In this document: in pieces, positions 6,191 to 10,753 of the stretch
How positions within the stretch are numbered: position 1 is the first letter of the stretch
Layout of the letters: each line of letters begins with the position of its first letter
Origin: a virus
DNA length: 61,050 bases
IMG/VR virus record: IMGVR_UViG_3300032288_004306
Coordinates: 1 to 61,050 of that record
Direction: 5' to 3' (one strand)
Translations under genes and position numbers: made by a program
Notes under the pieces: model-generated
The model's input: the letters and a program-made list of their open reading frames with translations, nothing else
Told to the model about the DNA's origin: nothing
Database searches by the model: none

Positions 6191-6216
6191 GGGGGACTTC
6201 GAAGTCCCCCTTTTTT
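6191..6216 (+). terminator. Intrinsic terminator after gp32
   Basis: A perfect 10-bp inverted repeat, GGGGGACTTC (6191-6200) and GAAGTCCCCC (6201-6210), followed by six T residues. It ends the rightward early/replication unit exactly where the leftward tail unit also ends. On the minus strand no T-run follows the stem, so leftward stopping would be weaker. Confidence 0.9.
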
Positions 6217-8941
6217 ATGACACAATCGCTGATGTAAACGCAGTTGGGTGAGAGAAATCTTTAGCCAATGCTCTATTAAATGAGTTATCATTTGAGCGAG
6301 TTGATGCTTTTGGTACTGGTGTTTTTGGTGATTCGATTGGTTTTTGAGAACCACTTTGATTATTATTAATCACCACAGGAGCAGCAGGTGCTGCTTGCGC
6401 AGTCATCTTCGAAGTTTCTAGTTGAGCAGAGCCTTGAGCAACATCAGTTCCTGCTGTATTTGTAACAGGAGATATATTTGCGTTTAATGGTGCTGCAGCA
6501 GGTGGTTGCGCTTCCATCGATGATGGTGGTGCTGCATTTGTTGATGCAGCCACTGCTTGTTGTTCTGCGCCAGCAGTTGCTGGTGGTGGGGCTGCTCCGC
6601 CACCAGAATCAGAGACAGGTGGAAGTGATGCTTTCTGATTCTGAGCCATTGGTGGAGAAGGTGGTAATGATTCAGATTTACCAGTTTCCAAATTGACCAT
6701 GTTACCTTTTGAATCAGCAACTAATGGTTTAGCATTTGGATCAGGATTATCTGGAGTAGGTGCACCTTCTAGTGGTTGAATGTGCCATGGCTCATGACTT
6801 AATGGTCTTTTTAAACCGAACATTGCTAGGAATGAATCTGTTGTGACCTTTTGACCATTGAAGGTCATGCCATTAATGGCATCGATACCTGCTGCACCTT
6901 TACTGTTAATATCAACTGCAGTTCCACGACCATGTGCGCTACCTTTACCACCTAATGCTGCTGGCAGTGCAACCCACTTGCGAGTCATTTTAGTTAATTG
7001 TGCTTCAGTGGCATTTGGGTTGGCTGCTTTCAATTCGTTGTATTTTGCAGTCCATAGTTTCATCTGCTTTTCATCTGAACGATATCCAGATGTAAGCATA
7101 AGTTTCTTACCAGTAACTTTTTGAAACGCTTCTGCCATTCGTGCAAGACGATCTTGCATTCCAGATTGCAATCCTGCAGTATCGATACCTGCGTTTTGTT
7201 TCGTTGTGACTTGATCTAGTTTTGGTGATGGTCCAGAGAATAAATTCGAAACTGCACTTGCAACTTGTTTTGCACCAGAAACAACACCTGCCCCGATCTC
7301 TTTGGCTTTATCAACTGCAGTTTCAAGGAATGTCTTTGGTTGCGCAGCTGGTGGTGTTGGTGCAACTGGTGCTGCAGCTCCACCCACGGCTGCTGGAATT
7401 GTTGCTGCGGTTGCAGTTGTAGCTGCTACAGTGCCTGCGCCAGGAAGTGCACTCTTATCTGCTGCAGCAACTGGTGCCATTTTTTCTTTTACTGGAGCGG
7501 GTTTTGTTTCACCAGTGCTCTTTTTTTTCTGAGCCTTCTCATCATACAAGGCTTTTTCAGCATCTGATAGCGCAGAGAATTCTTGCCATAACTGATAAAG
7601 ATCATAAGCCATCCATAAACTGCCAGCGATAGTTAAAGCAGCACCTACCCAACCAGCACCAGGAATAGTTGCAAGTCCACCTGCAAGCGCGAGTCGTGCT
7701 CCAATTTTAGCAAATAGTGTGGGTGCTTTTTTCTTGACAAAACCAACAAATAAATCCCATGCTTTTGATTTAACGTTTTTTACAACTGCTGTTTGTCCAA
7801 TTTTCTTTACAGCAACCGCACCTGCGACGGCACCTGCGCCACCAGCACCTGTTGCAGCTGCTTGTAACTTAATATCTTTCTTTTCAGCAGCAATTTGATC
7901 GCCAACTATCTTCTTTTCTTCTGGCGTTTTTGCGGTCATAGCCTGTTCTTTCAGAGCCTCACCGCCTTGAACTTCTAGATTAGGATCACGCAATGAATCA
8001 ACTGCTTGATATGCGAGGAATCCACCTGCAGCTGCTCCTGCCAGTGCACCAATTCCACCAAATCCTCTTCCACCGCCTCTGCCGCGACCTCTTCCACGAC
8101 CACGACCTCTTCCACCTCCACCTCCACCCAATCCACTCAATGCGCTTTTGGCAAGCAACATGTTTAGTTTGTCATGGACAGAAAGTAAACCGAGTGTTGG
8201 CGTCACTCCATTCAATGAAGACAAAGCGTCTCCAGTTCTATTCATCAACTTCTTAGAGTCGAGATCACCGAGTTTATCTTCAAGATATTCTCTGAGTTGA
8301 ACTAATGGTTGTTCATCTGCACCAATGGCTGAAGAAAGTATTGCTGTTCGAGCTGCAGCTCCACCAGTTGACGTTGCTTCTTTTGAAGAAACAAGTTTTC
8401 CTTCAGTATTTTTATATCGACCACCACCAGACATGCGTGGATCGAAAGTGTAACCAGATTTAAGTGAAGGTTTTGCTAAAGATCTTTCAATATTTTTAAC
8501 AATATTTTGAGTTTCAATTACCTTACGAATGATAATTGAAAGTGGCTTTGCAAGTTTACCGACTCCACTACCACCACCTCTTTCGCCCCTTTCTTTTTTG
8601 TCTAATCCAAATTTGGCTTGGGCTTCTTTAATCTTTTCTGGAGATTCCATTTTCTCCAAACCGAGATTCTTAAACATGTCACCCAAATCTCTTCCAAGCA
8701 ATCCTTCGAAGAATGCTTGACGTTTTCCGAGAGTGCCTCTCGTGGCGATGGCATATTCTTTTGAAACTTGTTGTCGCGCTTTTGCAGAAGCGATAGCACC
8801 ACCAATAAGACTCTTTCCTTCTCGTGCTTTGGCAGCTTCTGCTGATGCGACTTTTTCAAATGCATCAGTACTCCCTCTGCCCATTCGTCTATTGACTTCT
8901 GCGAGAATACCTTTTCTAATTTTTTCTGAGTCTACTGCCAT
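6215..8941 (-). CDS. Tape-measure candidate with M15 peptidase domain
   Basis: A 908-residue protein. Order: helical N-terminal third; a Gly/Arg-rich tract (about residues 270-295); a hydrophobic, Ala/Gly-rich region with a membrane-like segment near residues 415-450 (AGGLATIPGAGWVGAALTIA); a Pro/Ala linker; an M15 (VanY/D-Ala-D-Ala carboxypeptidase type) peptidase domain at about residues 610-730; and a low-complexity Pro/Ala/Gln tail. The peptidase zinc ligands are visible: SAHGRGTAVD (His670, Asp677) and HEPWH (catalytic-type Glu717, His720). Position directly after the gp26 chaperone-type gene, length and composition suggest the tail tape measure, a known carrier of peptidoglycan-cutting domains. 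A separate baseplate hub protein is the alternative. No T4 gp29 similarity can be claimed by eye. Confidence 0.65.
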   Translation of the reverse strand: MAVDSEKIRKGILAEVNRRMGRGSTDAFEKVASAEAAKAREGKSLIGGAIASAKARQQVSKEYAIATRGTLGKRQAFFEGLLGRDLGDMFKNLGLEKMESPEKIKEAQAKFGLDKKERGERGGGSGVGKLAKPLSIIIRKVIETQNIVKNIERSLAKPSLKSGYTFDPRMSGGGRYKNTEGKLVSSKEATSTGGAAARTAILSSAIGADEQPLVQLREYLEDKLGDLDSKKLMNRTGDALSSLNGVTPTLGLLSVHDKLNMLLAKSALSGLGGGGGGRGRGRGRGRGRGGGRGFGGIGALAGAAAGGFLAYQAVDSLRDPNLEVQGGEALKEQAMTAKTPEEKKIVGDQIAAEKKDIKLQAAATGAGGAGAVAGAVAVKKIGQTAVVKNVKSKAWDLFVGFVKKKAPTLFAKIGARLALAGGLATIPGAGWVGAALTIAGSLWMAYDLYQLWQEFSALSDAEKALYDEKAQKKKSTGETKPAPVKEKMAPVAAADKSALPGAGTVAATTATAATIPAAVGGAAAPVAPTPPAAQPKTFLETAVDKAKEIGAGVVSGAKQVASAVSNLFSGPSPKLDQVTTKQNAGIDTAGLQSGMQDRLARMAEAFQKVTGKKLMLTSGYRSDEKQMKLWTAKYNELKAANPNATEAQLTKMTRKWVALPAALGGKGSAHGRGTAVDINSKGAAGIDAINGMTFNGQKVTTDSFLAMFGLKRPLSHEPWHIQPLEGAPTPDNPDPNAKPLVADSKGNMVNLETGKSESLPPSPPMAQNQKASLPPVSDSGGGAAPPPATAGAEQQAVAASTNAAPPSSMEAQPPAAAPLNANISPVTNTAGTDVAQGSAQLETSKMTAQAAPAAPVVINNNQSGSQKPIESPKTPVPKASTRSNDNSFNRALAKDFSHPTAFTSAIVS

Positions 8942-8948
8942 TTATTTT

Positions 8949-9859
8949 CTATCTTTTACGTTGCATCTCTAGCATCTTCATTTTTTCGTTCTGTTCTTTT
9001 ATCATTTCCTGCAACATCGTAACATAAATCTGTTTTTCCCACGGTATCAAATTCTCTAGTTCAGTCAAAGAGTATTTGTGATGTTGTATCAGTGAAAAAT
9101 TAGTTGTATAGTAATTTTTCAAATTATCATAACCAAATATTAGTCGAAAAAACTTAGAATGCCCTCCACGTTTACGTTATGCACAAATCCACATTTACCA
9201 CAAGCGAGTTCTTGCTCTAAAATAACTCTCGGACTTGTCAAGAAAAACTGTTTAATATTCTGCACCTGATCAATAGTTAAGTTGTCGAAGAATGTCATTA
9301 GTTCTTCTTTCGAAACCATCTTCTTCTCATAAATTTGATCTTCGTCATAAATGTAATCAAGATATTCAGCAATCACTTCGTAACCGCCATCCTCAAACTT
9401 ATCATTCAATGCTGCTTCAGGAATTGTGATCGAAGGATAGTTAAACTTAACTCCGATGTTTTCCGTCAATTTAACAATGTTTGTATGACCCTCTGTTTCA
9501 GCATATCTAATGTTTTTTAGAAGAAGATCAAATTCTGTTTTATGACCACATGGTTGATCTTCAACAACGTTGTTGCAAGTATAAATCATTTGAGCAGTTT
9601 CACCAACTGAATTAATTCTCAAATGTAAGAAAAACATCTCAACGTCAAAGGTTGGTAAACTGTCCACATCAAGATCATCTAAACAACAATTTGTAATAAT
9701 CTGTTTAATTGTTGATGTGATTTCTCTCAAATCCTCTGACTCTTTTGCCATTAAAAGAAGTTTTTCTTCTTTCACTAGAAATGGACGAAAACGAACTTTT
9801 TTATCTAATGACTTCAAATACACTTCATGTATAGGGTGTTCAATTTTTGGTAAAGGCAT
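8949..9859 (-). CDS. gp26 -1 frameshift fusion, G/GT-like chaperone
   Basis: Slipping back one base at T TTT TTC (9146-9152) avoids the TAA at 9140 and adds 65 residues in the -1 frame, giving a fusion of about 303 residues. The extension has no ATG or GTG of its own before mid-frame, so independent initiation is unlikely. It contains YSLTELENLIPWEKQIYV, then a charged helix rich in Lys, Glu and Met. This Leu-Pro-Trp-Glu-(x)-(x)-Ile-Tyr pattern is familiar from small proteins encoded next to gp26 in tailed phages. It ends with TAG at 8949-8951, 7 bases before the tape-measure candidate. Arrangement and position match the lambda G/GT tail assembly chaperones. Frameshifting is inferred from sequence, not shown. 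Confidence 0.72.
9140..9859 (-). CDS. 26: gp26-like baseplate hub/tail assembly protein
   Basis: A 239-residue product resembling gp26 of T4-like phages (T4 base plate protein family). Start PLPKIEHPIHEVYLKSL is typical. Two cysteine pairs, TCNN...PCGH near residues 90-104 and CGKCGFVHN near residues 220-228, look like a zinc knuckle. GGAG lies upstream of its ATG. The gene ends with a slippery T TTT TTC just before its stop, and a 65-codon -1 frame continues beyond. In T4, gene 51 follows 26 at this point. This is the shorter, unshifted product and is likely the major one. Confidence 0.8.
   Translation of the reverse strand: MPLPKIEHPIHEVYLKSLDKKVRFRPFLVKEEKLLLMAKESEDLREITSTIKQIITNCCLDDLDVDSLPTFDVEMFFLHLRINSVGETAQMIYTCNNVVEDQPCGHKTEFDLLLKNIRYAETEGHTNIVKLTENIGVKFNYPSITIPEAALNDKFEDGGYEVIAEYLDYIYDEDQIYEKKMVSKEELMTFFDNLTIDQVQNIKQFFLTSPRVILEQELACGKCGFVHNVNVEGILSFFD
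9146..9167 (-). promoter_or_regulatory. -1 frameshift site with upstream Shine-Dalgarno
   Basis: On the minus strand, GGAGGG (9162-9167) is followed after 9 bases by the heptamer T TTT TTC (9146-9152) in the gp26 frame, with the gp26 stop two codons later. This is the same layout as E. coli dnaX, where an internal Shine-Dalgarno about 10 bases upstream of the slippery heptamer stimulates -1 slipping. No obvious downstream stem-loop was seen. Confidence 0.75.
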
Positions 9860-9877
9860 AATTTACTCCATCAAATA

Positions 9878-10753
9878 TCAACTAAAATCTCCACTAGCAC
9901 CAGCACCAGCAAATTTTCCACCGCCAGGATTAATCGGACTTGGTCTTACGGTTTGCGGTATGATTGTTGGTCGACCATCAGATACTGGTGGTGTGGAACC
10001 AGATGCTGACGATGTTCTACCAGATTGAGTTGCTGTTGAAGTTGCTGTTGGATTTGGTCGTGCAGACTGTTCTAATTCACCAGTTATCCAGTATTCATAT
10101 CTAAAAGTCACAGCGAGGCGATGAATGCTATCATCAGCCCAATTCATATTCATTGGAGCGATCGCTGTCGGAAATGCTCCGAAAAAAGAAACTTTATAGA
10201 TGACAGAAGTAGGTTCATAAATTGGCACAGCTGCTCTCGCACGCGCTGCTTTTTCATCTATTCCAAGACTTCCAAAATTAGCAGCTGATGTATCTCGAGC
10301 AATGCCAAGGCTTCCAGGTGCAGCTGTTTTTGAATCTCGTGCGATACCTAAACCTGCGTTTTCTATAGAAACTTCAGAGAATTGATTAATCTCAATTTTA
10401 GGAGACGTATAAGAATCTTTATAATTTGGATTATAGTTATTGATTGGAATAACTAAATTCATCCAACGATCAAAGAGTTTCTTTTCCCAAAAATCTCCTG
10501 TGCATACAAACGTGAGTGTTAAGTCGGCAAAGGTTGGGAATGTCGCAACTGGATTAGCAACGCCATAGTAACGACCATCAACCGTATTAACTGTGTAACC
10601 TGGTAATTCTGTGGCTTCACACTGAAAGCGAAGATCAGACGCATTTATCCCCAATCCTGGTGGAGCGATGATTCGAACATCAAACTTGGAAGTTTTTGCA
10701 AAATCATCATGTTTTGCGAAATGTGAACGAAATGTGTCTACATTAAATGCCAT
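9878..10753 (-). CDS. 54: gp54-like baseplate tail-tube initiator
   Basis: A 291-residue protein with the tail-tube fold pattern: DLRFQCEATELPG, GRYYGVANPVATFP, DLTLTFVCTGDFWEKKLFDRW, then a terminal strand region FRYEYWITGE. In T4, gp54 sits on the hub and nucleates polymerisation of the gp19 tube with gp48, which is encoded just to the right. A central insertion contains three near-copies of a GLGIARD/SLGIARD/SLGID motif (about residues 133-170), and the C-terminal 60 residues are Ser/Thr/Pro/Gly-rich and disordered in character. A tube protein gp19 is a weaker alternative, given the neighbours and the extra tail. Confidence 0.68.
   Translation of the reverse strand: MAFNVDTFRSHFAKHDDFAKTSKFDVRIIAPPGLGINASDLRFQCEATELPGYTVNTVDGRYYGVANPVATFPTFADLTLTFVCTGDFWEKKLFDRWMNLVIPINNYNPNYKDSYTSPKIEINQFSEVSIENAGLGIARDSKTAAPGSLGIARDTSAANFGSLGIDEKAARARAAVPIYEPTSVIYKVSFFGAFPTAIAPMNMNWADDSIHRLAVTFRYEYWITGELEQSARPNPTATSTATQSGRTSSASGSTPPVSDGRPTIIPQTVRPSPINPGGGKFAGAGASGDFS

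Follow-up and report, generated by a model that had tools for sequence, protein, structure and literature searches.

The window, the whole 61,050-nt stretch of viral DNA analysed here, carries on its minus strand a gp26-like open reading frame (ORF) of 239 aa (9859-9140, read from the sequence) that lies between a tail-tube-type gene and a 908-aa ORF. The features of this region are as follows.

9878..10753, minus strand: tail-tube-type protein (T4 gp54/gp19 type), upstream of gp26, by its match to phrog_45 (tail tube, 4.4e-35).
9140..9859, minus strand: gp26-like short chaperone form (TAC-N), 239 aa, by PF12322, phrog_150 and a structure model.
9162..9167 (9167-9162), minus strand: GGAGGG, a Shine-Dalgarno-like element, by direct reading, its occurrence in relatives and synonymous-site z.
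9146..9152 (9152-9146), minus strand: putative slippery heptamer T_TTT_TTC, by direct reading and conservation in relatives.
9140..9142, minus strand: zero-frame gp26 stop codon TAA, by direct reading.
8949..9146 (9146-8949, stop included), minus strand: -1 frame extension of 65 aa (TAC-C, T4 gp51 C-terminal domain), by phrog_634, pN/pS and hhalign.
6215..8941, minus strand: 908-aa ORF, tape-measure candidate by position, with a VanY/M15 peptidase domain (VanY, 3.8e-9).

The 3' end of gp26 reads GTG GAG GGC ATT CTA AGT TTT TTC GAC TAA, with a single sense codon (GAC) between the heptamer and the stop codon and with GGAGGG exactly 9 nt upstream of the heptamer. The -1 frame ends 7 nt ahead of the ATG (8941) that opens the 908-aa ORF (8941-6215), and the predicted full shift product comprises 238 + 65 = 303 aa. 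An earlier note on this DNA had described an in-frame T_TTT_TTC, GGAGGG 9 nt upstream and a 65-codon -1 frame with no ATG or GTG at its front; direct reading confirmed this anatomy, the first start-like codon of the -1 frame being TTG at 9122-9120. TTTTTTC strings occur in the window at chance frequency (28 found, 31 expected), so the heptamer alone proves nothing and the argument has to be made from its position and conservation.

The gp26 protein matches PF12322 (T4_baseplate) over residues 11-238 (5.8e-57, 193 bits, cut-off 24.5) and phrog_150 (2.7e-61). T4 gp51 is encoded by a separate gene of 249 aa, and its residues 1-201 also match PF12322 (7.7e-55). On these profile matches, T4 gp26, T4 gp51 and the window gp26 are members of one family (PF12322). 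When the gp26 protein was used as a query, one copy was found within this 61-kb record, which is a genome fragment. In BFVD, most matches of the structure model of gp26 (pLDDT 88) were to baseplate proteins of T4 type (gp26/gp51) or to unnamed proteins of phages, and the PDB gave no match when searched by sequence and by Foldseek alone. Residues 1-85 of the model aligned with the HK97 tail assembly chaperone 2ob9 (Z 7.4, 3.9 Å, 84 residues), residues 1-94 with 3fgx (Z 7.9) and 3klu YqbN (Z 6.7), and the best PDB chain for a T4-type gp51 model was also 2ob9 (Z 5.0); structural Z values below 8 for these models are not decisive by themselves. The predicted resemblance of gp26 to the HK97 tail assembly chaperone is thus supportive. 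In the gp51 model, the elements come in a similar order to those of gp26, and three additional helices (H206-221, H226-230 and H234-248) lie after them.

By its match at 2.6e-24 to phrog_634 (baseplate hub assembly catalyst), the extension is a homologue of gp51; 557 phage records contain a match to the extension at E up to 1. Variability by codon position in the -1 frame was 0.131/0.056/0.307, and the median pN/pS of the extension in this frame was 0.16. The -1 frame therefore evolves as a protein, under coding selection. With hhalign, the extension aligned to residues 207-246 of T4-type gp51 (E 1.3e-6), and in a profile comparison the frameshifting gp26 aligned to gp51 residues 6-200 (E 1e-8). 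Taken together, these two alignments indicate that T4 gp51 is the single-frame counterpart of the fusion product. The guess in the earlier note that the extension stands in for gp51 was right, as judged from the phrog_634 match and the alignment to residues 207-246, and its proposal that gp26 and extended gp26 are the equivalents of lambda G and GT is supported by the correspondence of the fusion to T4 gp51.

Conservation was examined in relatives of this locus. In a set of 54 IMG/VR loci (39-90% identity), all those that include the gene end have both the slip site and an extension in the -1 frame. The site and the -1 frame also occur in S-ShM2, syn9, S-SM2, S-SSM4, S-SSM7, S-CRM01, Melnitz-2 and HTVC008M, and in ValKK3, V07, EniLVp02, Cr30, phiM7, pf16, Astolliot and G2. 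In every relative where an extension could be found, its frame was -1. After deduplication at 90% identity (n = 113), 108 of the 113 distinct relatives, which span cyanophages, a pelagiphage and phages of Vibrio, Caulobacter, Sinorhizobium, Pseudomonas and Aeromonas, carried an in-frame T_TTT_TTN; the five exceptions were three of Ackermannviridae type that keep the -1 extension (CTT TTC, ATT TTC and CTT TTT) and two of T4 type without an extension. The codon before TTT TTN is AGT, TCT, GAT, AAT, GCT or GGT, such that the amino acid varies and the third base is always T. From each gene's own codon usage, the joint probability of T_TTT over 25 lineages (at 60% identity) was 2.8e-17. Elsewhere in gp26 genes, X_XXY_YYZ stands in frame at 125 of 25,680 positions, as against 108 of 113 genes at the slip site. 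The position and conservation of the slip site are far beyond chance. The earlier note had proposed a check on the conservation of the heptamer and the -1 frame, and both are kept down to <40% protein identity.

Several variants of the site were observed. Rhizobium phage RHph_I46 (L070 3178-3196) carries T_TTT_TTG (Phe-Leu), an unusual slip heptamer. Loci of Ackermannviridae type (L074 3244-3300, L075, L071 and L177-L194) keep the -1 extension and have ATT TTC or CTT TT[C/T] at the site instead of T_TTT_TTC, so that re-pairing in the P site would be imperfect. In the window clade, 16 aligned members share TTGGTTATGA (9127-9136, minus strand; 9 nt 3' of the heptamer) without a single nucleotide change, even at the wobble positions of its GGT and TAT codons. 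This invariance reaches down to 50% protein identity and is lost in the more distant L043-L051 group.

These data very probably reflect a programmed -1 frameshift at T_TTT_TTC by which one gene makes a short and a long tail assembly chaperone, as argued here from comparative sequence evidence. One other reading takes the heptamer as a by-product of a conserved Phe-Phe in an AT-rich gene, with an unrelated -1 frame. The Phe-Phe pair is indeed conserved in the gp26 protein, T4 gp26 included; however, T is fixed at the preceding wobble base and throughout the first Phe codon (2.8e-17, 25 lineages), and the -1 frame is itself a conserved coding domain. T4-type phages offer a natural control. T4 gp26, which is followed by gene 25, encodes its Phe-Phe as TTC TTT, and the T4-type relatives that were read have no -1 extension and use TTC TTT in all cases except L171, where GAG TTT TTT leaves G as the preceding base and hence no heptamer. 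The Phe-Phe-only reading is already contradicted by these codon data and retains a negligible probability. Transcriptional slippage, in which one extra U is inserted by RNA polymerase at the T-run and the fusion arises by ordinary translation of the altered transcripts, also appears very improbable. A T-run does exist, and it reaches 8 Ts in Melnitz-2 and HTVC008M, but 101 of 108 relatives have exactly six Ts followed by C, which is short for polymerase slippage, and what selection preserves is the phase together with the X_XXY_YYZ form that allows tRNA re-pairing, not a longer run of Ts.

The extension could instead be a small gp51 in its own right, with translation beginning at a start of its own or through termination-reinitiation past the gp26 stop, and with GGAGGG helping to hold the 30S subunit. 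Public annotations treat gp51 in this way, many cyanophages among them, and an ATG is found in the -1 frame ahead of the conserved extension motif in 76 of 108 relatives, while KVP40-type phages have a TAATG overlap. In the remaining relatives, the region before the motif holds only GTG/TTG (10/108) or none of ATG, GTG and TTG (22/108). In the window clade, however, an ATG precedes the motif in only 4 of 18 members; eight of the 18 have no ATG, GTG or TTG there and six have only GTG/TTG. The sole candidate start in the window, TTG 9122, sits 39 nt from GGAGGG and is CTG, TTA, CTA or CTT in relatives. The annotated gp51 starts themselves disagree, lying directly after the gp26 stop in S-ShM2 and 48 nt further in syn9, with the gene unannotated in S-SSM4. 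Moreover, a separate gp51 explains neither the conserved heptamer nor T4 gp51 as a fusion of gp26 and extension. The search for an efficient start of its own, by which the earlier note had thought its reading might fail, turned up none that accounts for the extension in the window clade. We consider a separate gp51 improbable, if somewhat less so than polymerase slippage, and re-initiation may add to or replace shifting in lineages that have an ATG in the -1 frame. In public annotations of T4-like genomes (L056, L057, L069 and L071, for example), gp51 thus has inconsistent starts, is truncated or is missing, apparently because the -1 join was not recognised.

For GGAGGG, the strength of pairing with the anti-Shine-Dalgarno sequence of 16S rRNA was compared with that after synonymous randomisation. 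In the window clade, the site had a z of -2.5, with other gene positions near 0, and the mean z at the Shine-Dalgarno-like site over 25 lineages was -0.9, the signal being weak outside the window clade and Cr30; two KVP40-type phages showed no excess Shine-Dalgarno pairing at the site. GGAGGG with the 9-nt spacing occurs in 52 of 108 relatives and weaker forms in most others, whereas EniLVp02 and RHph_I46, among these 108, have no Shine-Dalgarno-like element at the site. In L042, AGGAG is kept in a different codon register (GTA GGA GAT), which speaks for selection on the RNA. The spacing of 9 nt falls within the range of 9-14 nt known for stimulatory Shine-Dalgarno elements in -1 shifts (PMC5009743). 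The dnaX-like Shine-Dalgarno element proposed in the earlier note is thus supported for the window clade, given its z of -2.5 and its spacing, but is not universal, given the 25-lineage z of -0.9. From these comparisons, GGAGGG is a possible stimulator of the chaperone frameshift. As far as the literature was searched, no description of a Shine-Dalgarno stimulator in tail-chaperone frameshifts was found, and we suggest the upstream element in this capacity.

RNA structure downstream of the heptamer was also considered. RNAalifold predicted no pairs 3' of the heptamer in 77 cyanophage-type sequences. L107 (3755-3785) and other cyanophage-type loci have short palindromes (GGTCCATATGGACC, GATCCATATGGATC and GGTTCATATGAACC) ~10 nt past the heptamer (alignment A4, columns 18-31). 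The 5-bp palindrome of this type (GGTCC-ATAT-GGACC and variants) had 37 double-change cells against 14 expected and was only 68% paired. A clade-specific stem-loop with some compensatory changes is possible; given the 68% pairing and the lack of an RNAalifold structure, we do not claim a conserved downstream structure. The downstream fold of the window, computed from its sequence alone, is AU-rich with a z of -2.25, and a CATAAC/GTTATG pairing seen by eye around the site is not kept in relatives.

For the shift itself, its efficiency, the effect of the Shine-Dalgarno-like element and the role in assembly, we infer the following course. Most ribosomes would terminate one codon past the heptamer, giving gp26 as the short form (TAC-N). 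In a minority of cases, pairing between GGAGGG and 16S rRNA would slow or pull back the ribosome, two Phe-tRNAs would re-pair one base back on T_TTT_TTC, and translation would run on for 65 further codons to give a long form of 303 aa (gp26-gp51, TAC-NC). If lambda G/GT is a guide, the unfolded tape measure protein may be coated by many copies of the short form, and tail tube subunits may be recruited by the rare long form. The ORF at 8941-6215 is a tape-measure candidate on position only; the gene in the same place is annotated as tape measure in HTVC008M and Cr30, and a comparison of the 908-aa ORF with known tape measure proteins matched only the peptidase domain. This VanY/M15-type domain lies near residues 590-720; its only other matches are peptidases of Campylobacter phages and an internal virion protein of one Rhizobium phage.

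T4 itself presents the long form differently, with a gene of its own that is in frame throughout and lies on the opposite strand. By alignment, the gp51 of T4 and of T4-type phages amounts to gp26 and the extension joined in a single reading frame. In an unrooted tree, the frameshifting forms stand apart from two clades, one made up of T4 gp26 and the other of T4 gp51, a topology compatible with a duplication in the T-even line. We tentatively propose, giving it slightly less than an even chance, that the frameshift is the widespread state of the T4 superfamily, in many lineages with a Shine-Dalgarno stimulator 9 nt upstream, for which T-even phages substituted a gene duplication, in which gp26 lost the slip site and gp51 became fused in frame. 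gp26 and gp51 have been listed as hub assembly chaperones, with gp51 absent from the particle, and work on catalytic versus stoichiometric gene products has been cited beside gp51 (PMC3004832). If the proposal is true, the old idea of a catalytic T4 gp51 would reflect a low dose of the long form. Apart from this proposal, the frameshift reading itself makes the 'separate gp51' annotated in several hundred T4-like genomes a testable two-form chaperone, and slip sites of the cyanophage type and the split genes of T4 provide a clean contrast for asking what sets the proportion of the two chaperone forms.

The principle of a chaperone frameshift in T4-like phages is already known. Vladimirov, Gautam and Davidson (2022, Virology 566:9-15) reportedly described, for these phages, chaperones in a short and a long form as well as slip sites of poly-T type. 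The passages of PMC12846349 and PMC10885494 that cite Vladimirov 2022 state that poly-T slip sequences are known in T4-like TAC-N genes and that, in some T4-like phages, two genes are present instead, a short one and a fused long one. The T4-like TAC-N/TAC-NC pair is of the same short/long kind as that of the window phage, although the long form is a separate in-frame gene in T4 and a -1 overlap in the window phage. The TAC of phage Adele (Vandenendeviridae/Andersonviridae) likewise has a conserved poly-T -1 site at the end of TAC-N and, as here, an open -1 frame that carries a gene annotation of its own, but its motif is GTTTTT and it belongs to other phage families (PMC12846349). E. coli dnaX has an upstream Shine-Dalgarno-like stimulator with spacing in the 9-14 nt range (PMC5009743), comparable to the putative one of the window phage, but it slips on A_AAA_AAG and has a 3' stem-loop, whereas the window phage has T_TTT_TTC and no established stem-loop; the dnaX shift yields a shorter product, and that of the window phage would yield a longer one. 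In its gene order of tube, chaperone and tape-measure candidate, the locus would follow the lambda arrangement. It also has, like lambda G/GT, a -1 overlapping ORF without a conserved start and a conserved X_XXY_YYZ sequence at the end of the short ORF, where a putative -1 shift would take place as it does late in lambda G. Lambda slips on G_GGA_AAG, whereas the window phage would slip on T_TTT_TTC with an upstream Shine-Dalgarno-like element. The -1 shift near the end of the lambda gene is low-level, with a G/GT ratio of 30:1, and neither product is present in the virion (PMC5009743).
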